A stretch of 64,000 nt of DNA from Clostridium sp. HBUAS56010 (GTDB lineage: Bacteria; Bacillota; Clostridia; Lachnospirales; Lachnospiraceae). This document shows positions 40,873 through 54,649 of the stretch, in pieces; positions within the stretch are counted from its first letter, which is position 1; each line of letters opens with the position of its first letter. A program made the position numbers and the translations under genes. The stretch lies in NCBI RefSeq assembly GCF_007115105.1, contig NZ_SULJ01000004.1, positions 62,001 through 126,000 of the forward strand, given 5' to 3'. Under the pieces are notes generated by a model. That model ran no database searches. It was not told the DNA's origin and saw only the letters and a program-made list of their open reading frames with translations.

Positions 40873-41625
40873 TTAAAAGCTCTTTATTTCAATTCCTTTT
40901 TGTACCAGTCTTTCCCGTATCCGTTTAACAAATTCCAATGCTTTTTCTCCGTCTCCATGGACGCAGATGGATTCTGCCTCAATGGAAATCTGAGCTCCAT
41001 TCGTGGCAGTCACTGTTCCATTTTCCGCCATGCCAATGGCCTGGCTGACCGCTTTTTCTTCGTCTGTGATCACCGCTCCTTGTTTGCTTCTTGGGACCAG
41101 GGTTCCGTCACTCTCGTATGCCCTGTCTGCAAACACTTCACTGGCACAGGGGATGCCACATCGTCTGGCTGATGCAATCATCTGGCTTCCGCTTAAAGCA
41201 AGAAGAACCAGATCCGGGTCAACATCTGCTATGGCGTGGCAGAGAGCTTCCGCCATTTTCTCATCTCTGGCAGCCATGTTATAAAGAGCACCGTGGGGCT
41301 TTACGTGATAAAGGGGAATGGAAGCACTGTCACAAAATGCTTTCAATGCTCCGATCTGGTAGGTGACACAGGCTTTTACCTCTCTGGGGGAAAGATTCAT
41401 GTTTCTTCTTCCGAAACCGGAAAGATCAGGAAAACCCGGATGGGCACCTGCCCTCACTCCATACTTTTTACAAAGTGCCACAGTCTGCTCCATCACAAGA
41501 GGATCACCTGCATGAAATCCGCAGGCAATATTAGCTGATGTGATCAGCGGAAGGATCTCCTCGTCCCTTCCCAGCCGGTATACGCCAAAACTTTCTCCTA
41601 AATCGCAGTTTAAATCAATGGACAT
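40873..41625 (-). CDS. pxpA: 5-oxoprolinase subunit A (LamB/YcsF family)
   Basis: A 250-residue subunit of the ATP-dependent 5-oxoprolinase PxpABC, which opens pyroglutamate to glutamate. The family start DLNCDLGESFG, the metal-site histidines in ANIACGFHAGDP, GAHPGFPDLSGFGRRNM and PHGALYN are all present. The start at 41625 has GGAGA 8 nt upstream; an ATG 9 nt earlier touches that site. It is the last gene of the 11-gene operon. No clear terminator follows; a CATTAAAAGC direct duplicate lies downstream instead. Confidence 0.93.
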   Translation of the reverse strand: MSIDLNCDLGESFGVYRLGRDEEILPLITSANIACGFHAGDPLVMEQTVALCKKYGVRAGAHPGFPDLSGFGRRNMNLSPREVKACVTYQIGALKAFCDSASIPLYHVKPHGALYNMAARDEKMAEALCHAIADVDPDLVLLALSGSQMIASARRCGIPCASEVFADRAYESDGTLVPRSKQGAVITDEEKAVSQAIGMAENGTVTATNGAQISIEAESICVHGDGEKALEFVKRIRERLVQKGIEIKSF

Positions 41626-41664
41626 ACAGACCATCTCCTTTCTCTATTCTTTGCATTGTTAATC

Positions 41665-42465
41665 CTATTTTAATCTGGAGTTTTTCATGTCTGTAATAAA
41701 CATATGTCCGGGAGCATGGGTGATTGCAAAGGACGGCCGGCTGTTCATGACCACTGCCTGAGGCGTTACACCGCAAGGCCAGAACAAAGGAACTTCCCCT
41801 TCTTTTATTGTGACAGAATCTCCATAGTCCGGGCGGCTGATATCCTTGATCCCAAGGACTTCTGGATAGCCGATCTGTATGGGAGCACCGTGAACCTTTG
41901 GCATTGCTCCTGTGATGGCAACTGCCTCCGGCACCTGATGATGGGGAATTGGTCTCATACTGACCACCATGTTTCCAGAGAACATTCCGGCAGGAACACA
42001 CGGGATATTTGTATTATACATGGGAACATTCACCCCTTCTTCCAACTGCCTTACCGGAATGTCCGCTTCCAAAAGCTCTGCCTCAAACGTAAAACTGCAG
42101 CCAATTAAGAAACTAACCAGTTTTCCTTTTGTCTTCTGGTATTCATCAAAAAGCTCTGATACGTCCGTGGATTCTCTGGTATAAACCCCATCTTCATAAA
42201 TCCGGTATCTGGGAATATCGGTTGTTAAGTCACTGCCCTTTGCTGTCAGGGAAAATGTCCTGCTGCCTGCATCGGATACTTCAAGTAAAGGACAGGACCT
42301 TGGATTTCTCTGACAAAACAAAAGAAAATCATATGCCAGTTTCTCTGGAAGAATAACCAGATTTCCCTGCACATATCCCTTGCACATGCCTGTGGTCGGC
42401 TCCTTTATAATCCCCTTTCTGATCAGGCGCCTTACTTCTTCTGGTTTATAACCTGCCATATCCAT
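41665..42465 (-). CDS. D-glutamate cyclase family protein, DUF1445 half (YcsI-like)
   Basis: A 266-residue protein of the DUF1445 family: PEEVRRLIRKG, GYVQGNLVILPEKLAYDFLLFCQRNPRSCPLLEV, FLIGCSFTFEAELLE and PFFWPCGVTPQAV-type segments (here PLFWPCGVTPQAVV). The mammalian mitochondrial D-glutamate cyclase (DGLUCY), which makes 5-oxo-D-proline from D-glutamate, contains this domain at one end and DUF4392 at the other. Here both are encoded apart, three genes distant, between the Pxp genes. Bacterial DUF1445 genes often cluster with pxpABC. Activity is inferred from family. Confidence 0.88.
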   Translation of the reverse strand: MDMAGYKPEEVRRLIRKGIIKEPTTGMCKGYVQGNLVILPEKLAYDFLLFCQRNPRSCPLLEVSDAGSRTFSLTAKGSDLTTDIPRYRIYEDGVYTRESTDVSELFDEYQKTKGKLVSFLIGCSFTFEAELLEADIPVRQLEEGVNVPMYNTNIPCVPAGMFSGNMVVSMRPIPHHQVPEAVAITGAMPKVHGAPIQIGYPEVLGIKDISRPDYGDSVTIKEGEVPLFWPCGVTPQAVVMNSRPSFAITHAPGHMFITDMKNSRLK

Positions 42466-42497
42466 ATAGATTCCTCCCTTTTCATGGTGATTTTCTG

Positions 42498-43526
42498 TTA
42501 CTGGCTTATCCTGTGCTTTAACTTTTCTTTGAAGCCGAGGAATTTCTCTTCTTCCTTACGCCTTATCTCCACTGCCTTTGCCGGGGAAACAAACTGAAAT
42601 GTCACATGATCTCCTGGCCGCATCTGGGCAAGAGCAGAAACATCGGTGCTGATTACAGTCGCAATCTTGGCATAACTGCCGGTTGTCTGATGATCTGCCA
42701 TCATGACCATTGGAACCCCCGAAGCTGTTATCTGCACAGAGCCTTCCGAAATTCCATCTGAAATAATATCGGCTCCCTGTTTCATTCCAATCAGAGGTCC
42801 TTCCAGTCTGCACGCCATCCGGTCACAATCACTGGAAAGCCGGAAGGGAGACTTTATGAAAGTTTCTTTTCCTTCCCTGGTAAAGGCATCTTCCTGAGGT
42901 CCTTCTACCGCCCTTAAAAGAACATATCCCGTTGCTGCGTAAAAACGGTAAGGAGTCGAAGGTCTTCTGAGCCAGCCTTTCTTTTCGTCAACGGAAAACC
43001 ATGTTTCTCTGCCTTTTAATACTTCCAGAAAAGAGTTCACCTGCTCTGGAGTATTTCCCGTATCCAAATGGTCTAAAGCCTTAAGAGGACGTCCTTTTAA
43101 CCCACCCAGTCCGCATTTTAAGTTGGTGGACCGGCTTCCCATAACAAGAGGAACCTCAATTCCCCCATAAAGTCCCATATAGGTTCTAAGCCCTGATTGG
43201 GCATACTGAAATTTCAGCCGGTCACCTGCCTGGGCTGTTACCATACGATACATGGAAATGGGCTGTCCGTTTAAGGAAGGACGCATATCCGCACCGGTTA
43301 AGGCAAAGATTTCCGGAGAAGTAAAGCAGATCTCCCCACCGAAAAAGGTTAATTCGATTCCGGCGCACTGCTTTGACTCTTCCAGATTGCCTGCAAGCAG
43401 ATTGGCAAGCCTTAAAGAATATTTGTCACATGCTCCGCTTTCCTGAACTCCCTGGCTTTGATATCCGGTTCTTCCCCAGTCCTGTATGGTAGATAAAGAA
43501 CCTGGTGAAACAATCTCCAGCCCCAT
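42498..43526 (-). CDS. pxpC: 5-oxoprolinase subunit C (KipA-like carboxyltransferase family)
   Basis: A 342-residue protein of the biotin-dependent carboxyltransferase-like family: LEIVSPGSLSTIQDWGRTGYQ opens the domain, ALTGADMRPSLNGQ and MVMMADHQTTGSYAKIATVIS follow. No biotin is used in PxpABC; the fold binds the oxoproline-derived intermediate. The start at 43526 follows GAGGTGG; a longer frame to 43583 would run into pxpB. It lies 2 nt after pxpB and 32 nt before the DUF1445 gene. Confidence 0.92.
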   Translation of the reverse strand: MGLEIVSPGSLSTIQDWGRTGYQSQGVQESGACDKYSLRLANLLAGNLEESKQCAGIELTFFGGEICFTSPEIFALTGADMRPSLNGQPISMYRMVTAQAGDRLKFQYAQSGLRTYMGLYGGIEVPLVMGSRSTNLKCGLGGLKGRPLKALDHLDTGNTPEQVNSFLEVLKGRETWFSVDEKKGWLRRPSTPYRFYAATGYVLLRAVEGPQEDAFTREGKETFIKSPFRLSSDCDRMACRLEGPLIGMKQGADIISDGISEGSVQITASGVPMVMMADHQTTGSYAKIATVISTDVSALAQMRPGDHVTFQFVSPAKAVEIRRKEEEKFLGFKEKLKHRISQ

Positions 43527-43528
43527 AT

Positions 43529-44212
43529 TTACCACCTCGCTTCCTTTTCTGCCTGCTGGAACTCTTTGGGACTGATCGGACAAAACCTTATGCTGTCTCC
43601 AGCCTCATAAGGCATCTTAAGCCCATTGTTCCACTGAAAAAGCTTCCATGGAGTTCTTCCGATCAACTGCCAGCCTCCTGGAGAATCCACGGGATAGATT
43701 CCAGTCTGCTCTCCTCCGATTCCCACACTTCCTGCTGGAATTAAGGTTCTCGGCACATTTAACCGGGGAGTCATAATTCTCTCATCCATTCCCCCAAGAT
43801 AGGGAAATCCAGGCAGAAACCCCAGCATATAAATTCTGTAATCTCTGCCGGAATGAATCTCAATGACCTCTTCTTCCTTTAATCCGGCACGCTCCGCCAC
43901 ATAACTTAGATCTGGTCCATATTCTCCTCCATAGCATACGGGAATGGAAATTACGTTTCCAGAAGAACTCTTTTCCTCCCAGACAGCAGGAGAAACGGTT
44001 TTTAAAAATTCAGCAACTGACTCAAAATCAGTGATCAGGGGATCATAATAGACCAATAAAGAACAAAAAGCAGGTACCGTTTCTACAATTCCCTCCATAG
44101 GGAAGGCTGCAATTCTTTGATTCAGCTCCATGACCTTTCGGTTCACTGATTCACTGATGGTTTTTCCCATTTCTGCCAGAACTGCACGATCTCCTACTGC
44201 TTTTATTTTCAT
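43529..44212 (-). CDS. pxpB: 5-oxoprolinase subunit B (KipI-like)
   Basis: A 227-residue protein of the allophanate hydrolase subunit 1/KipI family: IKAVGDRAVLAEMG, the central VCYGGEYGPDLSYVAERAGL and FLPGFPYLGGMDERIMTPR (substrate-site loop), then GSVGIGGEQTGIYPVDSPGGWQLIGRTP. With PxpC it forms the oxoproline-handling core that works with PxpA. The gene follows the DUF4392 gene by 5 nt and precedes pxpC by 2 nt. Confidence 0.93.
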   Translation of the reverse strand: MKIKAVGDRAVLAEMGKTISESVNRKVMELNQRIAAFPMEGIVETVPAFCSLLVYYDPLITDFESVAEFLKTVSPAVWEEKSSSGNVISIPVCYGGEYGPDLSYVAERAGLKEEEVIEIHSGRDYRIYMLGFLPGFPYLGGMDERIMTPRLNVPRTLIPAGSVGIGGEQTGIYPVDSPGGWQLIGRTPWKLFQWNNGLKMPYEAGDSIRFCPISPKEFQQAEKEARW

Positions 44213-44217
44213 GTTCC

Positions 44218-45291
44218 TTATCCCCTTTCTTTAAAAAATCCCTTTTCTATCACTGGCTGAAACCAATGCTCTGAATGATAGGAGCAGCAGACTGCGTAAG
44301 TGGTGCACTGACGCATGAGACTGACAATTCCTGTGTTCAGGGCGATATCAAATCCATCAATTCCAGGAAGAAGAGAACCTGTCATATCTACAAGTCCGCA
44401 CCGGGAAGCGGCACGCATTAACTCTCCTTCCATCTCTTCCCGGTGAAGAATCTCCATATCCCTTTTTAAGTATGCAAGAGCCGCCATCAGGGCATAACAG
44501 CCCCAGTCCGAACAGGTGGCAGTGATCACATGGTCCGCTCTGCTTGCAGCAAGAATTCCGCCTTTGCAGCCGCAGATGCACTCGCCCTTCCCGGTAAAAG
44601 GCACATAGCGGGTAATATGCTCCCCAATGGTTCCCATCCCAATCTCATTGCCCAGATCTCCAATTGCAATGTTTAAAATTCCTTTTTTACGGAGCATCTC
44701 CCATAAAATATCGCTTTTTGCTTCCAGGTCTGAAACATCTTTTCCCACTGCATTGTGATAAATACCATAACAATTGGCACCAGGTGCTTCTACAGATATC
44801 ACTGCAGAAGGCAGAGCTTTTTCCATCAGCCATTCTCCATCAATTTTAGCTCTTAATGAATTTTTTGTAAAGGAAAGGACTCCCATACTGTGAGGAAATT
44901 CTCTTACGGCATCCACATCTTCATAAATATGCAGTCCCACCACTCCGGCACATTTTTTTACAGGTTCCACACATTCCTCAGGGCACACAATAACGGGTTT
45001 TGCCCCAAACGCCAGCACCAGGGATCTTGCTAACAGCAAAGAGCTTACCATTCCATCCATCTCCGGATCTTTGTGGGGAAGTAAGATAAATCCGGTGAGA
45101 ATATAGACCAGATCGCCATCTTTAACCGTTTCACATAACCGTTCTGCTGCTGCCATGGCAAGAGGTTCTCCCATGGCACTCCGGCTTCCTGCATACAGAA
45201 TCCGGCATACCCCATATCCTCTGGGATCAAGATTCATCAGGGCATCCAGATTCTCTGCCACATTCCTTTTTTCCAGTTCTTTTCGATTCAT
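44218..45291 (-). CDS. D-glutamate cyclase C-terminal family protein (DUF4392)
   Basis: A 357-residue protein of the DUF4392 family, the C-terminal part of eukaryotic DGLUCY. Visible hallmarks: the N-terminal NLDPRGYGV, LYILTGFILLPHKDPEMDG-type segment (here VYILTGFILLPH), GGLGNEIGMG-type loop (here GDLGNEIGMG), CKGGILAASRADHVITATCSDWGCYAL and a C-terminal SYHSEHWFQPVIEKG. D-glutamate is the expected substrate together with the DUF1445 protein. The start at 45291 follows GGAGGG by 7 nt. It sits directly downstream of the D-amino-acid aminotransferase gene, which makes D-glutamate. Confidence 0.88.
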   Translation of the reverse strand: MNRKELEKRNVAENLDALMNLDPRGYGVCRILYAGSRSAMGEPLAMAAAERLCETVKDGDLVYILTGFILLPHKDPEMDGMVSSLLLARSLVLAFGAKPVIVCPEECVEPVKKCAGVVGLHIYEDVDAVREFPHSMGVLSFTKNSLRAKIDGEWLMEKALPSAVISVEAPGANCYGIYHNAVGKDVSDLEAKSDILWEMLRKKGILNIAIGDLGNEIGMGTIGEHITRYVPFTGKGECICGCKGGILAASRADHVITATCSDWGCYALMAALAYLKRDMEILHREEMEGELMRAASRCGLVDMTGSLLPGIDGFDIALNTGIVSLMRQCTTYAVCCSYHSEHWFQPVIEKGFFKERG

Positions 45292-45330
45292 ATCATTCCC
45301 TCCGGTATCTTCCATGATTTTCAGTCTCAA

Positions 45331-46188
45331 TCAGTCAAAGAGACTCTCCTTTTCCGTATAAGAAAGATATTCTTTGATCACTTCATCCTGGATCTTTTTT
45401 AAAGTCACCGGATCTTTTCCTCCTGCTGGTACGCCATCAATCTCATTGGCATGCAGGCAGAAGTTAGAAGAAGAGGTTACAATGATTTCATCTGCTTCCA
45501 TTAACTGTGTCAAGGAAAATGCTTCTTCCATTACCTGGATTCCAAGCTTATAACAGGCTGCAATCATATGAGTTTTTGAGATTCCACGCAGAATGAACTG
45601 GTCGTTGGGGTGGGAGTAAAAGACCCCGTCTTTTAAAATGGACACATTGCTGTGAGCACACTCTGTAACCACGTTACCCCTGTGAAAAATAGTTTCATCC
45701 GCCCCGGCTTTCTTTGCCTTCTGAGATGCCATAACGGAAGGAATTAGATTTAAGGTTTTTATGTTGCAATGAAAAAAACGGGTATCTTCCATGGTAATCA
45801 AGGATATGGGAACCTCCGGATCTTTCAACCGGTTCGGACGGATCATGACCCACAGCTTTCCAGTCATCTCGTCACTGTATACATGATTCCGCTCACCAGC
45901 CCCTCTGGTAACCTGCCAGTATACAAAGTGAGTTTCCCCCTCCACCATTTTCAAAAGACTTGTCAATAGCTCTCCAAGCTCCTTCTTTTCCATGGGAATC
46001 TTAATGTCCAGAGCCTTTGCGCTGGAATAAAACCGATCCAGATGATCCTGCAAAAGATAGACTCTGTGATTCCCTCCAACAGTGGCGTCATAAACCCCAT
46101 CTCCAAAGAAATGAACCCGGTCCTGAAATGGGATTAACAATTCCTCCGGTGTTCCAATTGTTCCATCATAATAAGCCAGTTCTTTCAT
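45331..46188 (-). CDS. dat: D-amino-acid aminotransferase (class IV)
   Basis: A 285-residue fold-type IV PLP enzyme. K144 in CNIKTLNLIPSVMASQ is the Schiff-base lysine, E176 in VVTECAHSN contacts the PLP pyridine, and the DRVHFFGDGVYDATV segment matches D-alanine aminotransferase rather than branched-chain enzymes. It converts D-amino acids plus 2-oxoglutarate to 2-oxoacids plus D-glutamate. AGGAGG precedes the ATG. It links the LIV transporter genes to the D-glutamate cyclase genes in one operon, which supports D-glutamate as the central intermediate. Confidence 0.9.
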   Translation of the reverse strand: MKELAYYDGTIGTPEELLIPFQDRVHFFGDGVYDATVGGNHRVYLLQDHLDRFYSSAKALDIKIPMEKKELGELLTSLLKMVEGETHFVYWQVTRGAGERNHVYSDEMTGKLWVMIRPNRLKDPEVPISLITMEDTRFFHCNIKTLNLIPSVMASQKAKKAGADETIFHRGNVVTECAHSNVSILKDGVFYSHPNDQFILRGISKTHMIAACYKLGIQVMEEAFSLTQLMEADEIIVTSSSNFCLHANEIDGVPAGGKDPVTLKKIQDEVIKEYLSYTEKESLFD

Positions 46189-46197
46189 ATGCTCCTC

Positions 46198-46896
46198 CTA
46201 TTGTCCAAGATACGCTTTTTTCACCCGCACATCTTTTAATAAATCACCTGCATTTCCTTCCATGGTGATCTTACCTGTTTCCATGACATATGCACGGTTC
46301 GAAATGGATAATGCCATTTTTGCATTCTGCTCCACTAAAAGAATGGTAATGCCGTTTTTGTTTACCTCTTTGATAATGGAAAAAATCTCTTTTACCAGCA
46401 GGGGAGACAGTCCCATAGAAGGTTCATCCATTAAGATCATCTTTGGTTTTGCCATAAGCGCCCTGCCTACGGCAAGCATCTGCTGCTCGCCGCCTGATAA
46501 GGTTCCTGCAAGCTGTTTTTTCCTCTCTTTTAATCTGGCAAACCGGTCATAAACCTGCATCATGGTGGTTTCCATTCCTCTGGTATCAGTAAATGCTCCC
46601 ATTTCCAGATTTTCCTCCACTGTCATCTGAGGAAAGATGTGCCTTCCTTCCGGAACATGTGCCAGTTTCAGGCAGATGATTTTACTTGGTTCTGTCTTTC
46701 TTAAATCGGTTTCGTCAAAAAGGATTTCCCCCTGATCCGCCTTAATCAATCCGGTAATGGTTCTAAGTATGGTGGTTTTTCCAGCCCCGTTTGCACCAAT
46801 TAAGGATACAATCTCCCCCTCATGTACTTCTAAAGAAACGCCATGTATGGCTTTTACCACCCCATATGACACTTCCAGATCGTTTACTTTAAGCAT
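46198..46896 (-). CDS. livF: LIV-type amino acid ABC transporter ATPase LivF
   Basis: A 232-residue ATPase of a branched-chain-type amino acid importer. Walker A GANGAGKTTILRTITG, signature LSGGEQQMLAVGRALM, Walker B LILMDEPSMGLSP (here MILMDEPS). The start at 46896 has AGGAGG 9 nt upstream and lies 5 nt after livG; a longer frame to 47013 would overlap livG heavily. The gene is 10 nt upstream of dat. Substrate is set by the binding protein, not this subunit. Confidence 0.92.
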   Translation of the reverse strand: MLKVNDLEVSYGVVKAIHGVSLEVHEGEIVSLIGANGAGKTTILRTITGLIKADQGEILFDETDLRKTEPSKIICLKLAHVPEGRHIFPQMTVEENLEMGAFTDTRGMETTMMQVYDRFARLKERKKQLAGTLSGGEQQMLAVGRALMAKPKMILMDEPSMGLSPLLVKEIFSIIKEVNKNGITILLVEQNAKMALSISNRAYVMETGKITMEGNAGDLLKDVRVKKAYLGQ

Positions 46897-46900
46897 CCTG

Positions 46901-47689
46901 TTATTCCTCCTCTTTTCCAAGATAGGCTTCAATGACCCGTTCATTGGCGGCAATCTCTTCTGGAGTTCCAGAAGCAATGGTGGTTCCAAAATCAAGCACC
47001 TTAATCCGCTCACAGATCTTCATAACCAGGCTCATATCATGTTCGATGAGAAGAACAGAAATGCCGAATTCTCTTCGGATATAGTTGATAATCTCCAAAA
47101 GTTCCTCTGTTTCTGTGGGATTCATTCCAGCCGCCGGTTCATCCAGAAGAAGAAGCTTCATATTGGTAGCAAGAGCTCTGGCAATCTCCAGCCGGCGCTG
47201 CTGTCCGTAAGGAAGATTGCCTGCCTGCAAGTCTTCGGTTCCGGTTAAATGGACCATTTCCAAAAGTTCCTTTGCCCGTTTCGTAAGATTTGTTTCCTGC
47301 TCCCAATATTTTGGCGTGCGGAACACTGCATGGAACAGGCTGTAGGCACCTTTCGTGTTCATCGCACATTTAATATTGTCAATTACAGACATTTTCTTGA
47401 ATAACCGAATATTCTGAAATGTTCTGGCAATACCTGCTTCTACAATCTGGTGAGTTTTTTTTCCGTTCATTCTCTCCCCGTTTAAATAAAAGGACCCTTC
47501 CGTAGGACGGTACACTCCGGTGATTAAATTAAAGATGGTGGTCTTTCCTGCACCATTGGGGCCGATCAGACCAACTAATTCCGCTTCTCCGATTTCCAGA
47601 TCAAATCCATTTACTGCCTTTAATCCTCCAAACTGGATTCCCAGATTTTCAGCCAGCAGTACGGGAGTCTTTTTTTCCAACTGTTCCAT
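46901..47689 (-). CDS. livG: LIV-type amino acid ABC transporter ATPase LivG
   Basis: A 262-residue ATPase with Walker A GPNGAGKTTIFNLITG, the LivG-type TFQNIRLFKKMSVIDNI, signature LPYGQQRRLEIARAL and Walker B LLLLDEPAAGMNP. The LPYGQ signature variant is normal for LivG. It partners LivF. It starts 2 nt after livM; all five transporter genes lie in the order binding protein-livH-livM-livG-livF. Confidence 0.93.
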   Translation of the reverse strand: MEQLEKKTPVLLAENLGIQFGGLKAVNGFDLEIGEAELVGLIGPNGAGKTTIFNLITGVYRPTEGSFYLNGERMNGKKTHQIVEAGIARTFQNIRLFKKMSVIDNIKCAMNTKGAYSLFHAVFRTPKYWEQETNLTKRAKELLEMVHLTGTEDLQAGNLPYGQQRRLEIARALATNMKLLLLDEPAAGMNPTETEELLEIINYIRREFGISVLLIEHDMSLVMKICERIKVLDFGTTIASGTPEEIAANERVIEAYLGKEEE

Positions 47690-47691
47690 TT

Positions 47692-48708
47692 TTACCTCCC
47701 TCCCTTTTCTCTGCTCTTATTGGCTTTCAACCCTTTCTTTCCCCCTGTCAGACGTTTCAACAGACGGGTCAGGGAAAATTCCCAGGTTCCAAAGATTCCG
47801 CCTGGCTTAAAGATCATAACGAGCACCAGAACTACGGAGTAAACAAGCATACGGTACTGGGAAAACTGGCGGGTCATCTCAGGCAGAGAGGACAGGAATG
47901 CAGCTCCTATAATTGAACCAGTAAGAGAGCCGGTTCCTCCGATAATTACTTCCGATAACAGTTCCGCAGAGTACATGAAATTAAAATTAGTAGGAATCAT
48001 GGCAGTCATGTAATGCGCGTAAATTCCTCCTCCCACACCTGCAAAAAATGCAGCAACCGTAAAAGTCAGCACTTTATAATAGGTAACATTAATTCCTGAT
48101 GCACTGGCAGCAATGTAGTCTTCCCGGATGGCTTTGACCGTCCTTCCAAACCTGCTTCGTACATACATATACATCACGCCTACACAGATTGCCATAATCC
48201 AGTAACTCCAATAAAAATCAGACAGCTTTAAGATTCCGCTCATGGTCTTTCCGCCTCCTGTAATGGCAAAGTTACAAAAACAGACCCGTATAATCTCCGC
48301 AAATGCCACTGTAACAATGGCAAGATAATCGCCTCGCAGCCGGAGGGCAGGAATACCTACTAAAACTCCGGTAATTCCTGCTGCAATACCGCCTGCCAGA
48401 AGTGCAAGTATAAACAGGGGGAAATCCGGAATTCCTCTTCCTGCAAGAGCATTGGATACAATGGCGGAAGTATAGGCTCCCACAGACACAAAGCCTGCAT
48501 GACCCAAAGAGAATTCTCCCATACACCCTACTACCAGATTCAGGGAAGCAACCATGACAATGGTGTAACAGGCTGTGGTGGCAATCCCTTTCATATACTG
48601 GGTAGAGGCTCCCAGTATTTTGGATTCAAAAAGAAATACAAACAGAAAAAACACTGCCAGCACGCCCAGAATATTAATGATGTAAGAAACTTTATATCGT
48701 CGTTCCAT
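47692..48708 (-). CDS. livM: LIV-type amino acid ABC transporter permease LivM
   Basis: A 338-residue inner-membrane permease with about ten helices and the LivM motif VVGCMGEFSLGHAGFVSVGAY. The start at 48708 follows AGGGGGTG and lies 10 nt after the livH stop; an ATG at 48738 would overlap livH. It pairs with LivH to form the amino-acid channel. The charged C-terminal tail (KRLTGGKKGLKANKSREKGG) is cytoplasmic. Confidence 0.92.
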   Translation of the reverse strand: MERRYKVSYIINILGVLAVFFLFVFLFESKILGASTQYMKGIATTACYTIVMVASLNLVVGCMGEFSLGHAGFVSVGAYTSAIVSNALAGRGIPDFPLFILALLAGGIAAGITGVLVGIPALRLRGDYLAIVTVAFAEIIRVCFCNFAITGGGKTMSGILKLSDFYWSYWIMAICVGVMYMYVRSRFGRTVKAIREDYIAASASGINVTYYKVLTFTVAAFFAGVGGGIYAHYMTAMIPTNFNFMYSAELLSEVIIGGTGSLTGSIIGAAFLSSLPEMTRQFSQYRMLVYSVVLVLVMIFKPGGIFGTWEFSLTRLLKRLTGGKKGLKANKSREKGGR

Positions 48709-48718
48709 GGCCCACCCC

Positions 48719-49609
48719 CTAAACTTTCTCGCCCACATTCTTACCCAGAATGCCAGACGGTTTTACCAAAAGTATAACAATTAAAATTCCATAAGTAATT
48801 GCCTCATACCAGCCAGGTGCAAACAGCTTTACAAATATTTCAATGAGACCTACTAAAATACCGCCTAACATGGCTCCCGGAATGATTCCGATCCCACCAA
48901 GCACTGCTGCAATAAATGCCTTTAATCCCATCATGGAACCCATATCATTGGTTACTCTCGGATATCTGGTGCAGTACATCAGTGCTGCAACCGCTGCCAG
49001 AGTGGAACCAATGGCAAAGGTGATGGTAATGACCTTATTGACGTTAATCCCGGATAAAATGGAGGCATCCACATCCTGGGGAACTGCCCGCATCGCCTTT
49101 CCCATTCTGGTTTTCTTAATAAAAAGCTGCAGCCCTGCCATCATGGCAATTCCTATTCCTATGGTTAAAAGCACATTGAGGGGAAGGGATGCACCCAGTA
49201 TATTCACCGTTGGAAAATCAAAGATCTTCTGGATGTTCTGGGGTTTTGCCCCAAACAGCACCATGGCAAGGTTTTCTAAAAAAAGGCTCATGGCAAGGGC
49301 TGTAATAAGGGCAGACATGGAACCCGCTTTGCGGACCGGCTTATATGCCACAATTTCAACCACAACTCCCACCGACGCACAGACAAGCATTGCCAAAAAG
49401 ACTGACAGCCACGGAGGCATTCCGGCATTTATCATCAAGGGGATGGTATAAAATAAGGTGTATGCTCCAATCATGATAAAATCCCCGTGGGCAAAGTTTA
49501 TCATGCGGATGATTCCATAAACCATGGTATAACCAAGAGCAATCAATGCGTATATGGCTCCCTGATTCAAGCCGTTAATCAGACTCTGGAAAAATAGCGA
49601 AAATGTCAT
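48719..49609 (-). CDS. livH: LIV-type amino acid ABC transporter permease LivH
   Basis: A 296-residue permease with the LivH start LINGLNQGAIYALIALGYTMVYGIIRMINFAHGDF-type pattern and about eight helices. The start at 49609 is preceded by AAAGGA and fits the family; a longer frame to 49675 would run into the upstream hairpin. It follows the binding-protein gene, with a hairpin at 49642-49677 between them that may lower expression of the membrane parts. Confidence 0.92.
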   Translation of the reverse strand: MTFSLFFQSLINGLNQGAIYALIALGYTMVYGIIRMINFAHGDFIMIGAYTLFYTIPLMINAGMPPWLSVFLAMLVCASVGVVVEIVAYKPVRKAGSMSALITALAMSLFLENLAMVLFGAKPQNIQKIFDFPTVNILGASLPLNVLLTIGIGIAMMAGLQLFIKKTRMGKAMRAVPQDVDASILSGINVNKVITITFAIGSTLAAVAALMYCTRYPRVTNDMGSMMGLKAFIAAVLGGIGIIPGAMLGGILVGLIEIFVKLFAPGWYEAITYGILIVILLVKPSGILGKNVGEKV

Positions 49610-49641
49610 AAGGGTTTTTCCTTTCTCTTTCAAAAAGGAAA

Positions 49642-49677
49642 ATGTGCACCAAAGACGCTTCCGCCTTTTTTGCACAT
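49642..49677 (-). other. hairpin between the binding-protein and livH genes
   Basis: The outer stem ATGTGCA/TGCACAT and inner AAAGGCG/CGTCTTT (one G-U pair) are followed by TTTTCC. It probably stabilises the abundant binding-protein message or partly terminates before livH. Confidence 0.55.
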
Positions 49678-49698
49678 CTCCTGATTGTGTTTACTCTG

Positions 49699-50901
49699 TT
49701 ATTTCTTTGTGCCTTCCGGCGAAAGAGTCATGAGCCACTTCACTTTGCCATCTTCATAGGTATTAATGGCCACTGATTTTTCAGGATCTCCATTTTCATC
49801 AATCGTAAAGGTTCCGCCCACTCCGGTAAAGGTCATTCCTGTCATCCCTTTTACCAGAGATGCCGTATCATTTCCGCCCCCATTTTTTGCTGCTTCTATC
49901 AGCATGTAAATAGCATCATAATAAAGGGCTGCACAGGCATTTAAGCTTTCAGAACCATATTTCTCTGTATACTTTGATACGAAGTTTGAAACTTCCGGTG
50001 CCGTATCCTCAGAAGAATAATGATTGGTAAAGTAACAGTTTTCAAATGGTTCTTCAAATCCCTTTGTATCGGCTCCATCCCAGCCGTCGCCTCCCATAAT
50101 CGCACCGTCAAAACCGGAATCTCTTGCTGCACCGACTAAGAGGGGAACTGTATCAAGGAATGCCGGGTAAAACAGAAAATCTGATCCCTTTGCCACAACC
50201 TGGGACGTCTGGGAAGAAAAATCCGTATCTTTGGTGGTACATTCCCCTACATAAACCACTTCAATGCCATTTTCTTCGGCATTTTCTATAAAGGCATCTT
50301 TCAACCCATTGGAATAATCATCGTCCTTTGCATAGATAACAGCGGCTTTCTTCCAGCCCTTTTCCTTGGCAAACTGAGCTGCCATCTTGCCCTGATAGGG
50401 ATCAATGAAGCAATCTCTAAAGATGGTTGGACCTTTTAAGGTAATGTCTTTATTGGTTGCTCCTGTTGCAACCAAAAGCATGTTATCCTTTGATGCCTGT
50501 TCTGCCATTGGCAAGGTTACCGAAGAGAAAAAGCTTCCTACCACCGCATCCGGACTTTCTTTCATCAGACTGTTATAAGCATTAATCGTCTGTTTGGCAT
50601 CGCTGGCATCATCTGCCATCTTTCCCCCGTTGATGATCTCCACCTTATATTCAGAATCACTGGCATTGATCTCTTCCGCCGCCATGGCAATGGCATTTTG
50701 TGCTCCCTCGCCGTAGATGGCAGAGCCTCCGGTTACGGGACCAATAACCCCCACCTTAATGGTCTTTCCATCAGAAGCAGTCTTTGTCTCGGGAACAGCC
50801 CCCTTGCTCACAGAACTTTGCTGGGCTGATGAACCACAGCCAATGAGAAAACTGGCGGATACTACCGCAGTCAGGACAAGAAAACATAATCTTTTTTTCA
50901 T
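49699..50901 (-). CDS. livK: LIV-type amino acid ABC transporter binding lipoprotein
   Basis: A 400-residue periplasmic-binding-fold type I lipoprotein: signal peptide MKKRLCFLVLTAVVSASFLIGCGSS with lipobox Cys at 22, followed by KVGVIGPVTGGSAIYGEGAQNAIAMAAEEIN and the LIV hinge pattern. It delivers an amino acid or peptide to LivHMGF. Binding specificity cannot be read from the sequence; the linked dat and D-glutamate genes suggest a D-amino acid, pyroglutamate or another glutamate-related compound. AGGAGG precedes the ATG by 7 nt. First gene after a structured leader. Confidence 0.92.
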   Translation of the reverse strand: MKKRLCFLVLTAVVSASFLIGCGSSAQQSSVSKGAVPETKTASDGKTIKVGVIGPVTGGSAIYGEGAQNAIAMAAEEINASDSEYKVEIINGGKMADDASDAKQTINAYNSLMKESPDAVVGSFFSSVTLPMAEQASKDNMLLVATGATNKDITLKGPTIFRDCFIDPYQGKMAAQFAKEKGWKKAAVIYAKDDDYSNGLKDAFIENAEENGIEVVYVGECTTKDTDFSSQTSQVVAKGSDFLFYPAFLDTVPLLVGAARDSGFDGAIMGGDGWDGADTKGFEEPFENCYFTNHYSSEDTAPEVSNFVSKYTEKYGSESLNACAALYYDAIYMLIEAAKNGGGNDTASLVKGMTGMTFTGVGGTFTIDENGDPEKSVAINTYEDGKVKWLMTLSPEGTKK

Positions 50902-51097
50902 ATTCGGTTCCTCCTCTTACTTTTCTTCATTCAAACAGTCCGGGAAACAAAAAAGAAGCTTTCCCACAGTAATACAGGGGAAAACTTCCTCGTTCTCCAT
51001 TCAATCCGGGGCTGGCCGAAAAGACCGCCCAAAGACGAAAAGAGCCGCAACCGTAGCTTCACGGTTGAGACTCCTTTGTTCTCTTGTTTGATATGTT
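50902..51097 (-). ncRNA. structured 5' leader, candidate riboswitch/attenuator of the D-glutamate operon
   Basis: The predicted transcript of about 195 nt starts near 51097. Nested helices are CCCAA/TTGGG (51096-51100 with 51028-51032), AAAGGAG/CTCTTTT (51071-51077 with 51038-51044) and AACCGT/ACGGTT (51061-51066 with 51049-51054), then a hairpin GGCGGTC..GGCCAGCC (51010-51029), then the terminator. The closing pair at 51028-51029 is shared with the following hairpin, so they can compete. No consensus I know (T-box, S-box, lysine, glycine, glutamine, guanidine, ZTP, THF) fits. Confidence 0.6.
50949..50988 (-). terminator. intrinsic terminator inside the leader (attenuator)
   Basis: On the minus strand an 11-bp stem (GAAGTTTTCCC paired with GGGAAAGCTTC, one U-G pair) is followed by TTTTTT, about 50 nt before the binding-protein start. 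Position upstream of the coding region suggests conditional termination. Confidence 0.75.
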
Positions 51098-51103
51098 GGG
51101 TGA

Positions 51104-51174: not shown

Positions 51175-52500
51175 TTACCGGATATCGTACTGGTCATTCT
51201 GGCTGTCATTTGGTCCATCAATGGAAATCTCCACATCTTTCCAGTTCATGTGTTTCACTCCCTGAATTCTTCCCAGTTCCTTTGCCTGAATCTTCACATG
51301 GTCAAAGGTAACCTGTTCCATTGGCTTTTCCGGAAATGCGTCAATCTCAAACGCTCTGGAAGGTCCCTGGTAATCCGGCTCATTGACAGACGTTACATTG
51401 CGGATGGTAATATTTTTAACCTTGGGAATTCCCGTCTCTTTTTCTACGTTCTGGGTCAGGGTCTTCCAGTGTTCTGGAATCTCACCTTCATAATCTTCTG
51501 GCAGCCGACAGTAACTATAGGCTGGATGCCAGTTTAAACACATGCTGAAAGGATACTTTACATTAACCATCTCAAGATTCTCCACCAGCACATCCTCAAT
51601 AAGCCCGCCTCTGGTTTTTGCAGATTTCATACGGAAACCGCAGTCCGTATTATGGTATTTCAGATCCCGGATCACAATATTTTTTGCTCCCCCGGAAGTC
51701 TCACTTCCTATGGTGACTCCTGCTCCGGTTAAAATCTCACAATCTCTTATGACCACATCCTCACAGATTCTGTTTACCCGAAGTCCGTCTGCATCCCTGC
51801 CGGATTTGATACAGATGCTGTCATCGTTGCATGCCACTTTGCAGTGCTCCACAACAACATGACGGCAGGAATCAATATCAATCCCATCGGTACTTGGTCC
51901 TTCATTGTCATGAATATAAAGCCCGTTTACATGGACATGCTCTGAATAACATAGATGAATGTTCCAGAAGCCGGAACGAAGGCTTTCAAACCCGGAAAGC
52001 TCAATATCCTGGCTTTCCATCACCACCATATTGCGGACCCTTGCACAGTCGTAATCCACACACCACCGGAGATTCTTTGCATCGTATTCTTTTCTCATTC
52101 CGCCTTTTTGGTCCTGTCCCCAGTACTTGTTCCACCAGTAAGGCCCCTGACCGTCAATCGCACCCTTTCCCGTAACCTTCACATCTTTCTGGCCATTGAT
52201 ATTGAGTATGGCGGCAGGCCAGTCCATCTCAATTCCAGCCACACGGGTGCGGATTACCGGATACCGGCTCTCCTCTGTGGTTCCAAGAAGCACAGCCCCT
52301 TCTTCCATATGAAGTTCCATATGGCTTCCTAAAAATAAAGAACTGGTCAGATAAGTTCCTGCCGGAAGGAGCACCGTTGTCCTCTGACTTTCTGATGCCT
52401 GTGCCGCTGCCGCATCAAAGGCGGTCTGCAGGGCTTTGGTATCCAGTGTTATTCCATCAGCTGCTGCCCCATATTCTTTTACATTAAAAATCAAGTTCAT
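51175..52500 (-). CDS. GH28 family polygalacturonase-like glycosidase
   Basis: A 441-residue right-handed beta-helix enzyme. FNVKEYGAAADGITLDTKALQ is the classic N terminus; STDGIDIDSC (203-212), NDDSICIKSG (225-234) and GVTIGSETSGG (261-271) hold the catalytic Asp residues; the GSE variant in place of GHG is frequent in exo-acting members. There is no signal peptide, so it probably acts inside the cell on imported oligogalacturonides or rhamnogalacturonan fragments. It overlaps the GH105 gene by 17 nt and ends the pectin operon. Confidence 0.9.
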   Translation of the reverse strand: MNLIFNVKEYGAAADGITLDTKALQTAFDAAAAQASESQRTTVLLPAGTYLTSSLFLGSHMELHMEEGAVLLGTTEESRYPVIRTRVAGIEMDWPAAILNINGQKDVKVTGKGAIDGQGPYWWNKYWGQDQKGGMRKEYDAKNLRWCVDYDCARVRNMVVMESQDIELSGFESLRSGFWNIHLCYSEHVHVNGLYIHDNEGPSTDGIDIDSCRHVVVEHCKVACNDDSICIKSGRDADGLRVNRICEDVVIRDCEILTGAGVTIGSETSGGAKNIVIRDLKYHNTDCGFRMKSAKTRGGLIEDVLVENLEMVNVKYPFSMCLNWHPAYSYCRLPEDYEGEIPEHWKTLTQNVEKETGIPKVKNITIRNVTSVNEPDYQGPSRAFEIDAFPEKPMEQVTFDHVKIQAKELGRIQGVKHMNWKDVEISIDGPNDSQNDQYDIR

Positions 52501-54649
52501 CGTAAACCTCCTTCATCTTCTCCACTTCCATTCCTGCAAGCAGGACAATTCCGGTTCCATGGGTATCATTTAAATTCCACCCCAGATCCCTGGCATAATA
52601 TTCTTTGCTGAAGGAATACCCGGACCCTCTGCAGACTCCGTAAATATTGCCCTTCCAGTCAATCGCCTTTAAACAGAGTGCCTCCCAGCCTTTTAAGGCG
52701 GCTTCTTCATAAATTGCTTTCTCTGACAGCCAGCCGCAGCGCACTCCTCTTGCAAAACCATAGATAAACATTGCCGTACAGGAAGTTTCTTCATAGGAAT
52801 CAGGGAATGTAAGAACCTGATGCCACATTCCATCTGCTCCCTGAAGTTTTACATATCCTCCGCACAGCTTTCGAAAGATGGCAAGAACCTCTTCCCTTCC
52901 TTTAAAATCAGCGGGCAAAACAGCTAAAAGTTCCGAAACGGAAAATAGCACCCAGCCATTTCCCCGTCCCCAGGGTACCTTTGTCTGCACCTTATAATGG
53001 GTATCATAGATATGGGACATAATTTCAAGCTCCGGCATGTAAAGATACGAAAAAAAATTCTTCACCTGTTTTACTGCATCCTCCAGGTAGATGGTTTCCC
53101 CGCTTCTTTCATAACACCGGCATAAAAAAGGAATGCTCATATACAGATCGTCTGCCCAGAGAGTCTGATTCATAATGGGCATATAGGAATGATTGCGGTA
53201 AAAAGTACCATCAGGCAGTCTTTGCTGTCTGTTCTGTACAAAATCTGCAATCTGGTCCGCAATCTCATCACCTTTGCCAATCTTTTGATCCTTCATCACC
53301 TCTAAAAGTGCAGAGGCAAAGGAACCGCAGTCATCCAGACTGTCCACGGTAGTAAGCTGGTTATGGAAAGGAGCTGCGCCATAAACCGACTTGTCCCACA
53401 TGCAGTAATCGTAAAATCCGGTGCATTTTCTCATATGACCTGCCACATAGTCAGCCAGACTGTCATCCTTTAACAGTCTGGCAGTCTGGATCAGTCCATA
53501 AAGAGTAACGCCAAGGGGATAATTCCATTCTCCATACAGCACCCCTTCATTAAAAGGACGGATTGCTGTATCCGGCAGATCTGCCAGCCAGAACGCTTCT
53601 CCATCCATGGTTTTTACAGGAATCTGAAATGTCAGAAGGGCTTTTATATCCGGTTCTTCTCCTGCTTCAAAAGGACCGGCATAGAGCCAGGGCAGTTCCT
53701 TTTTTCGTTCCATATTTACAGGACTGAGAAAACAAAGCTCCCCTCCCCCTTCCGCTTTTAAAACCGGAGATACCTCCCAGCCGTAAAATGCAAGAGTATG
53801 ATATCCCCCTGTAAGGTTCAGAGGAATATCATAACTACCAGAAAGCTCCTGTTCTTTTTCCCCATCAACATATAAAACTGCCGGATCTGTTCCTGTTCCC
53901 GAAAGAAAATACGTTCCTTGGGAAGGAATAAACACAGAGGTTACAGACAGAATACGCAGGGACCGGGCATGTGATTGCTCCTTATAAAATATCCGGCTGA
54001 CAGGAGATAAGGACTGCTCCTTGTCCTTCCATTTATTTTGAGGATACCAGGTTATGGGGAAGTCTTCCTCTTTCTCATAAAGATCTGGAATCCGGTATGC
54101 TTTTGATTTCACGGGTCCGCTGTAGATGAAGCCGCTGTAATCTTTGTGCTCTCTGGTTGGACCAAAAAACTGAATCCTTCTGCCTTTATAGGAACTGCTT
54201 CCAATGGTAAATCCACAGCCCAGGGGAGTTGCAATGCACTCAAAAAACAAACTGTTATCCCCTTCCACAAGTTCCAGACAGACATCGGACAACTGGTCCG
54301 GGAAACGTTCCTGTTCGTGGCTGGTGCGAAACGCTGCAATTCCATTGACATAAATGGTCACCGGACCAAACGCACTGAACCGGAAATGAAACGGTCCTTT
54401 TTGAGAAACCCGGAGTCTTGCCCAGGCAAATGCGTAAGACTCCAGTTCTATTTGCGGAAACTTTTCATGAAATTTTATTTCTTCCATATATGTTTCCGAG
54501 ATATGAAAGTTATTTCTGCTTCTTAAATAATACTGAACCGGCACCGGCGGATTGTCAGACACAAACCTGTCTGCAATGGTACGGAGCACGCTCCTGCCAC
54601 TTCCCAGCCGGCAGCCGATGCTTTCCTCCTTAGGAAAATACTCACTCAT
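52484..54649 (-). CDS. GH105-type unsaturated rhamnogalacturonyl hydrolase with N-terminal beta domain
   Basis: A 721-residue protein. The C-terminal part (about 355-721) is an (alpha/alpha)6 barrel of the GH105/GH88 type: YPLGVTLYGLIQTARLL, TTVDSLDDCGSFAS with a catalytic Asp candidate, WADDLYMSIPFLCR, PWGRGNGWVLFSVSELL and DGMWHQVL. It removes unsaturated uronic acid from lyase products. The N-terminal 330 residues look like jelly-roll modules (AFGPVTIYVNGIAAFRTS). No signal peptide, so it is cytoplasmic. The order GH106-like, GH105, GH28 in one operon gives a degradation set for imported fragments. Confidence 0.88.
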   Translation of the reverse strand: MSEYFPKEESIGCRLGSGRSVLRTIADRFVSDNPPVPVQYYLRSRNNFHISETYMEEIKFHEKFPQIELESYAFAWARLRVSQKGPFHFRFSAFGPVTIYVNGIAAFRTSHEQERFPDQLSDVCLELVEGDNSLFFECIATPLGCGFTIGSSSYKGRRIQFFGPTREHKDYSGFIYSGPVKSKAYRIPDLYEKEEDFPITWYPQNKWKDKEQSLSPVSRIFYKEQSHARSLRILSVTSVFIPSQGTYFLSGTGTDPAVLYVDGEKEQELSGSYDIPLNLTGGYHTLAFYGWEVSPVLKAEGGGELCFLSPVNMERKKELPWLYAGPFEAGEEPDIKALLTFQIPVKTMDGEAFWLADLPDTAIRPFNEGVLYGEWNYPLGVTLYGLIQTARLLKDDSLADYVAGHMRKCTGFYDYCMWDKSVYGAAPFHNQLTTVDSLDDCGSFASALLEVMKDQKIGKGDEIADQIADFVQNRQQRLPDGTFYRNHSYMPIMNQTLWADDLYMSIPFLCRCYERSGETIYLEDAVKQVKNFFSYLYMPELEIMSHIYDTHYKVQTKVPWGRGNGWVLFSVSELLAVLPADFKGREEVLAIFRKLCGGYVKLQGADGMWHQVLTFPDSYEETSCTAMFIYGFARGVRCGWLSEKAIYEEAALKGWEALCLKAIDWKGNIYGVCRGSGYSFSKEYYARDLGWNLNDTHGTGIVLLAGMEVEKMKEVYDELDF

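Follow-up and report, generated by a model that had tools for sequence, protein, structure and literature searches.

Gene organization of the operon

The stretch analysed here, a 64,000-nt segment of the 3.95 Mb genome of Clostridium sp. HBUAS56010 (hereafter, the window), carries an operon that may encode a D-amino-acid salvage route. On the minus strand, from position 50901 down to 40873, eleven colinear genes are separated by gaps of only 2 to 89 bases in the order livK, livH, livM, livG, livF, a class IV transaminase gene, a DUF4392 gene, pxpB, pxpC, a DUF1445 gene and pxpA (Table 1). The initial annotation had described eleven colinear genes here, and all of the open reading frames (ORFs) were confirmed, with correct coordinates, strand and gene calls. 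Several of the longest ORFs are over-extended, and Table 1 gives these genes from their likely ATG starts.

Based on Pfam and NCBIfam matches, all five components of a LIV (HAAT) importer are present, and the three subunits of 5-oxoprolinase, PxpA, PxpB and PxpC, are encoded within the same operon. DUF4392 and DUF1445 are separate genes with pxpB and pxpC in between, not one chain; DUF4392, DUF1445 and PxpA are each encoded once in the genome. All Pfam scores of the operon exceed the curated cut-offs, LivG having been scanned against NCBIfam only. LivF scored 268.7 bits against the LivF model NF008626, below its cut-off of 441, and the best solved relative of LivK by sequence is 3td9 (E 8e-44). 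The operon is real and conserved, a pathway assembled from known families.

Table 1. Genes of the operon and the upstream leader. Coordinates are window positions; the third column gives the start of the longest ORF where it exceeds the likely gene.
Feature	Position	Longest ORF from	Strand	Model matches
Structured 5' leader of livK, candidate attenuator RNA (two tandem terminator-like hairpins, the second followed by a T run)	50940..51098		-	
livK, amino-acid-type substrate-binding lipoprotein	49699..50901		-	PF13458 Peripla_BP_6, 171.3 bits
livH, permease	48719..49609	49675	-	PF02653 BPD_transp_2, 154 bits
livM, permease	47692..48708	48738	-	PF02653 BPD_transp_2, 129.8 bits
livG, ATPase	46901..47689		-	NCBIfam best model NF008449 LivG (PRK11300), 310.3 bits, below cut-off 362
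livF, ATPase	46198..46896	47013	-	PF00005 ABC_tran, 114.3 bits
Class IV transaminase, D-amino-acid-transaminase-like (D-AAT)	45331..46188		-	Aminotran_4, 134.8 bits
DUF4392 / GLUCM-like_C protein, subfamily A	44218..45291	45330	-	PF14336, 271.6 bits (cut-off 27.9)
PxpB, 5-oxoprolinase subunit	43529..44212		-	TIGR00370, 216 bits (cut-off 145.55); CT_C_D, 257.7
PxpC, 5-oxoprolinase subunit	42498..43526	43583	-	TIGR00724, 277.8 bits (cut-off 230.2); CT_A_B, 273.3
DUF1445 protein	41665..42465		-	PF07286 'D-Glu_cyclase', 230.1 bits
PxpA, 5-oxoprolinase subunit	40873..41634		-	LamB_YcsF PF03746, 356.9 bits; NF003814, 377 bits (cut-off 226)

Conservation of the cluster and its supply modules

Patterns derived from DUF4392 subfamily A were run against the genome collection and gave 207 relatives (324 pattern matches), the best 80 of which were kept and all mapped. 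Among the 59 well-flanked loci, i.e., those with at least 2 kb upstream and at least 5 kb downstream, the DUF4392 gene is directly preceded by the D-AAT gene in 53, and D-AAT, DUF1445, PxpA, PxpB and PxpC all surround it in 48. Since 48 of 59 well-flanked relatives keep all five partners, the conservation of the cluster exceeds chance and is no local accident, which bears out the grouping of D-AAT, DUF4392, DUF1445 and PxpABC with a supply module that the initial annotation had claimed. The closest DUF4392 genes (77-80% identity) include those of [Clostridium] aerotolerans, Lacrimispora and Hungatella records.

The 11 exceptions are of several kinds. Four loci (L044, L050, L077 and L091) are without D-AAT. 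The Pxp genes are not nearby in L063, L079 and L067, the last of which is also without a local DUF1445 gene; all three genomes encode PxpA and DUF1445. L088 and L092 are without local DUF1445 and PxpA genes, which are present elsewhere in the genome for L092 and were not found for L088, and L056 and L085 have a solitary DUF4392 gene with no cluster partners. Beyond the close relatives, the genome G085 carries the arrangement D-AAT-PxpB-PxpC-DUF1445-PxpA with a subfamily-B DUF4392 protein that is 27% identical to that of the window; as this gene replaces subfamily A in a like cluster, both subfamilies probably do the same job. A shortened version occurs in the gammaproteobacterium Pseudoalteromonas, where DUF1445, PxpA, DUF4392 and a class IV transaminase are encoded in a row, with pxpBC not found in the stretch shown.

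Two modules accompany the cluster. LIV genes lie upstream in many clusters of the Lacrimispora, Hungatella and Gemmiger type, while many Clostridium and Oscillospiraceae clusters contain, or end with, an alanine racemase gene (24 of the 80 loci overall; 4 of 4 genes tested exceed the TIGR00492 cut-off). An Lrp/AsnC regulator fronts some of the alanine-racemase clusters (13 of 80 loci), and a sodium:alanine-symporter gene lies near 4 loci (one member checked). Considering the 43 wide D-AAT loci, 16 have LIV genes only, 18 alanine racemase only, 1 both and 8 neither; thus, the two modules are nearly exclusive (Fisher p = 3.7e-5). Both would supply D-AAT with a D-amino acid, which is the best, if indirect, clue to the cargo of the importer.

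The transaminase and the DUF4392 protein

The nearest solved relatives of the window transaminase by sequence are the D-amino-acid aminotransferases 3daa/1daa (E 1.3e-45). Residues Y33, R100, H102, K144 and E176 are kept in 67 of 67 aligned sequences; from the alignment of the transaminase to 3daa, we take the conserved set to hold the catalytic Lys and the carboxylate-binding Tyr, Arg and His.

In the DUF4392 family, E77, D79, E168, D212, E216 and D312 (357-aa numbering) are invariant in 41 sequences of both subfamilies. These acidic positions were matched by alignment to the metal ligands of TON_0340 from Thermococcus listed in the available part of PMC5132392; the two proteins thus share the family and six conserved acidic ligands. 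TON_0340 differs in being archaeal, 268 aa long and, in the same part of that source, shown as a phosphatase. Archaea are said there to be without a DUF1445 homologue.

Solitary subfamily-A DUF4392 genes were observed at four loci (L048, L049, L056 and L085), and DUF1445 and PxpA were not detected in their genomes, which suggests that DUF4392 also has a role on its own. Three of these genes adjoin genes that, judged by eye, resemble guaA, nth, MATE and recQ genes. In two Rhodobacterales plasmids (L124 and L128), DUF4392 adjoins genes resembling arylmalonate decarboxylase/EutA; a pairing of DUF4392 with glutamate racemase in this order was considered and rejected, since these partners give it no support. 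Two DUF4392 copies stand on either side of a gene annotated as selenocysteine synthase in Bradyrhizobium and Paraburkholderia (L125 and L127).

The stereochemical gap and the proposed route

Based on chemical reasoning, the cyclisation of D-glutamate gives 5-oxo-D-proline, and hydrolysis of the lactam leaves the alpha carbon untouched and returns D-glutamate. PxpABC acting on the D form alone would therefore run a futile ATP cycle, and net formation of L-glutamate requires that either 5-oxoproline or glutamate be racemised. As a route to L-glutamate, the conversion of D-amino acids proposed in the initial annotation is stereochemically incomplete. Of the two ways out offered there, namely, that PxpABC accepts the D form or that a racemisation is hidden, the first was rejected as a source of L-glutamate, because it regenerates D-glutamate, and only the second would give the L form. 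Among the gene families present in three or more of the 80 loci, alanine racemase is the only racemase recognised. Pyridoxal phosphate-dependent racemases require a free amino group; 5-oxoproline has none, and alanine racemase was thus rejected on chemistry as the hidden racemase.

We favour, tentatively, the reading of the operon as a salvage route for D-amino acids in which the amino acid is inverted by way of its lactam, with DUF4392 as the cyclase, DUF1445 as the racemase and an L-specific PxpABC. Its basis is the gene content, order and conservation, together with the conserved residues and the genome co-occurrence described below, and the enzyme activities are predicted. The cargo of LivKHMGF would be an amino acid, probably of the D form (e.g., D-alanine); in many relatives without the importer, an alanine racemase of the cluster could provide D-alanine instead. 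The D-AAT-like enzyme, judged by its family and active-site residues, would transfer the amino group to 2-oxoglutarate to give D-glutamate. By analogy to the mammalian fused enzyme, DUF4392 would act as a metal enzyme that converts D-glutamate to 5-oxo-D-proline without ATP. DUF1445, by elimination and from its genome profile, would convert 5-oxo-D-proline to 5-oxo-L-proline. The PxpABC family is known for the ATP-driven opening of 5-oxo-L-proline to L-glutamate, and PxpABC would perform this last step here. The use of ATP would make the route irreversible and keep it separate from glutamate racemase, which supplies the cell wall.

Co-occurrence of DUF1445 and PxpA

The pooled set of genomes comprised a family sample (100), a phylum sample (149) and 12 chosen genomes, with a reported total of 260. 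The 12 were chosen for a DUF4392 locus that was without a partner or cut, and are not a random sample; in the pooled table, the same genome could in principle appear under a second handle.

DUF1445 was found in 8 of the 100 genomes of the family sample, all 8 with PxpA (18/100 overall; p = 2.4e-7), and in 26 of the 149 genomes of the phylum sample, all 26 with PxpA (48/149 overall; p = 3.5e-16). In the pooled set, the DUF1445 model matches 40 genomes, and PxpA is present in 40 of 40. The DUF1445 and PxpA genes are no more than 6 kb apart on one contig in 21 of the 26 phylum-sample genomes, and in the remaining 5 the DUF1445 gene is directly followed by the DUF4392 gene on the same strand. DUF1445 copies are broken or partial in 2 of the 26 (G162 and G148).

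Among the 33 pooled genomes with DUF4392, the DUF1445 model matches 23 of the 24 that have PxpA and none of the 9 that do not (p = 2.6e-7); without two probable assembly gaps (G045 and G110), p is 3.0e-6. An enzyme linking the product of the cyclase to 5-oxoprolinase would be expected to show such a pattern; a second half of the cyclase would not.

This distribution also bears on the main alternative, which we consider unlikely, that DUF1445 and DUF4392 form one D-glutamate cyclase, PxpABC salvages 5-oxo-L-proline in the ordinary way, and the D form is either excreted or racemised elsewhere. Such a joint cyclase is implied by the Pfam names and by the presence of both domains within one active mammalian protein, as described in the accessible portion of PMC5339696, and the five phylum-sample pairs just mentioned stand in the order of that fusion. 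Nevertheless, DUF1445 occurs without DUF4392 in 14 of the 26 phylum-sample and 3 of the 8 family-sample genomes with DUF1445, each time with PxpA, and 10 of the 33 DUF4392 genomes have no DUF1445 match, G045 at least because of an assembly gap. One enzyme should not separate in this manner, and its product would have no L-specific outlet. The view of the two proteins as halves of one enzyme, held in the initial annotation, was thus not supported; DUF4392 and DUF1445 look like consecutive enzymes rather than halves of one. No fusion of DUF1445 to PxpA or DUF4392 was found in the long open frames of 4 genomes.

DUF1445 as a candidate racemase

Catalysis by cofactor-independent racemases relies on two acid/base residues, both of which are often Cys. 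In DUF1445, residues C58, C123, H192 and E224 are kept in 51 of 51 sequences. The 50 fold matches listed for DUF1445 comprise DUF1445 structures, the NrpR-like structure 3nek and common alpha/beta arrangements; a known racemase fold was not seen among these 50, which excludes nothing. The NrpR regulatory domain (3nek, MJ0159) differs in that NrpR is a repressor, and at 10% identity the common fold shows no function. More cautiously than the route as a whole, we suggest that DUF1445 could be a 5-oxoproline racemase with an NrpR-like fold, i.e., an enzyme of a new class through which 5-oxo-D-proline becomes usable. Together with DUF4392 and 5-oxoprolinase, it would carry out a D-to-L inversion of glutamate via the lactam, independent of glutamate racemase, in Bacillota and Pseudomonadota.

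The neighbourhoods of DUF1445 were also inspected on plasmids, where 240 records carry the family; among 40 listed, 16 neighbourhoods (6 or 8 kb per side) were examined, 15 of them annotated. An oxoprolinase-family gene lies near DUF1445 in 11 of the 15, PxpA in 10. In Paraburkholderia, DUF1445 is one gene away from a single-chain hydantoinase/oxoprolinase-family protein of 1210 aa that is unrelated to PxpABC and whose best NCBIfam model, caprolactamase, scores below its cut-off. Two regions with both DUF4392 and DUF1445 were read, and one has PxpA within 15 kb.

Other settings of the family were observed. A divergent DUF1445 gene (36% identity) of an Agrobacterium plasmid (L143:3787-7181) is clustered with genes for the dihydropyrimidinase HydA, a short-chain dehydrogenase/reductase and an ABC transporter; classic clusters of such a setting carry a hydantoin racemase. 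In a genome without a DUF4392 match (L099:8916-12627), the neighbour of DUF1445 belongs to the RidA family, and the opposite strand carries a D-AAT gene close by; RidA likewise adjoins DUF1445 in Azospirillum (L141).

Evidence against the proposed route

Several observations weigh against the salvage route and the racemase that it requires. The vertebrate fusion DGLUCY has both domains, yet its reported product is 5-oxo-D-proline, and people excrete mostly 5-oxo-D-proline, as cited in the same source (available part of PMC5339696). The vertebrate fusion thus appears to give no sign of racemisation, which speaks against DUF1445 as a racemase: either the vertebrate DUF1445 domain lost its activity, or DUF1445 does something else. 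It is because of these mammalian data that both the racemase and the full route are worded as tentative.

The family assignments leave similar room for doubt. The best NCBIfam model of the transaminase, the D-amino-acid transaminase model TIGR01121, scores 210 bits, below its cut-off of 277.45, and PxpC reaches only 222.8 bits against the PxpC equivalog NF045499 (cut-off 500). DUF4392 splits into at least two subfamilies, A and B, with just 22-27% identity between them, and the DUF4392 homologue TON_0340 is reported as a Mn-dependent phosphatase (PMC5132392, in the part available). Both types of supply module are missing in 8 of the 43 wide loci. An oxoprolinase gene was not seen near DUF1445 in 4 of the 15 annotated plasmid neighbourhoods, nor in a 33 kb Rhizobium stretch that holds both DUF families. 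The genome of the window itself encodes two Asp/Glu-racemase-family proteins, and a direct path from D-glutamate to L-glutamate therefore probably exists in it.

Regarding the co-occurrence, the p-values overstate independence because the genomes are related, and the random samples alone give DUF1445 in 16 of 17 versus 0 of 4 genomes (p = 8e-4, G045 counted as negative). One genome (G063) has DUF4392 and PxpA with no DUF1445 match. In G045, which is 84% complete and has no PxpA match, one contig carries pxpB and pxpC and, at its end, a fragment of DUF1445 that was left out of the family-search count. The genome of L088 (G110) also carries pxpBC. Because both genomes carry pxpBC, their missing genes may be assembly gaps.

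A further alternative is the scavenging of racemic 5-oxoproline, in which PxpABC opens both enantiomers, D-AAT turns D-glutamate and pyruvate into 2-oxoglutarate and D-alanine, alanine racemase converts the latter to L-alanine, and the two DUF proteins serve in regulation or repair. The reactions of D-AAT are reversible, and the alanine racemase gene in or at the end of the cluster in 24 of 80 loci would suit this scheme. It is nevertheless improbable: it requires a promiscuous PxpABC, a D-glutamate cyclase within the operon would reverse the PxpABC step, and LivK is of an amino-acid-binding family, whereas 5-oxoproline has no free amino group.

Relation to known systems

Bacterial 5-oxoprolinase PxpABC was reportedly described by Niehaus in 2017. 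In our control searches, B. subtilis also has a DUF1445 gene, which we take to be ycsI, whereas E. coli and C. glutamicum have PxpA and neither DUF1445 nor DUF4392. The operon resembles bacterial PxpABC systems in that the three subunits are adjacent, as in pxpTABC of C. glutamicum (PMC13274462) and the operon of B. subtilis (PMC10448178), both according to the parts of these sources available; it differs in incorporating a D-glutamate module.

With the mammalian protein DGLUCY / 9030617O03Rik (PMC5339696, in part), the operon shares both domains, DUF1445 and DUF4392, and five free-standing bacterial pairs keep the order of the fusion. Unlike DGLUCY, the operon has split genes with pxpB and pxpC between them, along with D-AAT, an importer and 5-oxoprolinase, and the DUF4392 protein of the window is from a distinct subfamily. 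Table 1 of PMC12547972 lists six split gut-bacterial homologues of human GLUCM (GLUCM_HUMAN), for which the available part of that source gives no pathway or operon. The initial annotation had called the split cyclase little studied in bacteria. The literature searched agrees, in that neither a bacterial function for DUF1445 nor a description of this operon was found among the listed titles and abstract beginnings, and no bacterial user of 5-oxo-D-proline was found in the literature examined; the split arrangement as such is already catalogued in the table just cited.

If the proposed route is correct, a function would be assigned to the widespread family DUF1445, a human mitochondrial enzyme would have its two domains divided between two reactions, and 5-oxo-D-proline would gain a catabolic fate. 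Additionally, D-amino acids would be open to bacterial use with the cell-wall pool of D-glutamate left undisturbed.

The leader of livK

The stretch 50903-51100, upstream of livK, folds with a z-score of -3.55, better than 199 of 200 shuffles, and we propose it as a candidate attenuator RNA. The hairpins are conserved in 10 aligned sequences (the window and 9 loci), with 5 of the 34 pairs changed on both sides, and the leader precedes livK in the LIV-type clusters of near relatives. In the genome of the window, a covariance model of the first hairpin scored 85.2 bits at the livK leader and 22.7 bits at the next site (150 of the 2435 first-look candidates scored). Over the window and 64 of the 80 loci, this model (R1) gave 12 strong matches, all upstream of livK, 11 of which had built the model. 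Its 7 weak matches there (E 0.02 to 0.44), which precede the livK frame or coincide with its start, are only suggestive. The Rfam search returned no family at a credible score; its two microRNA rows lay far under their cut-offs, and a known riboswitch was rejected on this result.

It is highly improbable that the LIV genes, although they match LIV families and are absent from many clusters, form an ordinary branched-chain importer placed by chance or co-regulation beside a separate 5-oxoproline repair cluster, given that the gaps do not exceed 89 bases, that in 17 of the 43 wide D-AAT loci LIV genes lie upstream on the same strand, almost never together with alanine racemase, and that a leader scoring highly only here in its own genome precedes livK.

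Other observations

In 15 of the 17 wide LIV-type loci, a cytidylate-kinase-like gene (PF13189; e.g., L035:8353-9012) lies between livF and D-AAT; it was not found in the window. At L026:5168-10000, two tandem copies of livG-livF-D-AAT have identical scores and are spaced by about 2.47 kb, which reflects either a recent duplication or an assembly artefact. In several clusters (e.g., L060:15838-17651 and L098:9327-11125), genes for a biotin carrier and a biotin carboxylase adjoin pxpBC, hinting at a biotin-dependent form of 5-oxoprolinase.

Downstream of the operon, 174 bases past pxpA, the window carries genes for a LytTR response regulator and a GHKL kinase (40698-38636), which are also found downstream in 4 near relatives; the pair may be separate or may control the operon. 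The carbohydrate genes of GH28 and GH88 type that precede the operon on its strand (51175-54649) are apparently unrelated to it.

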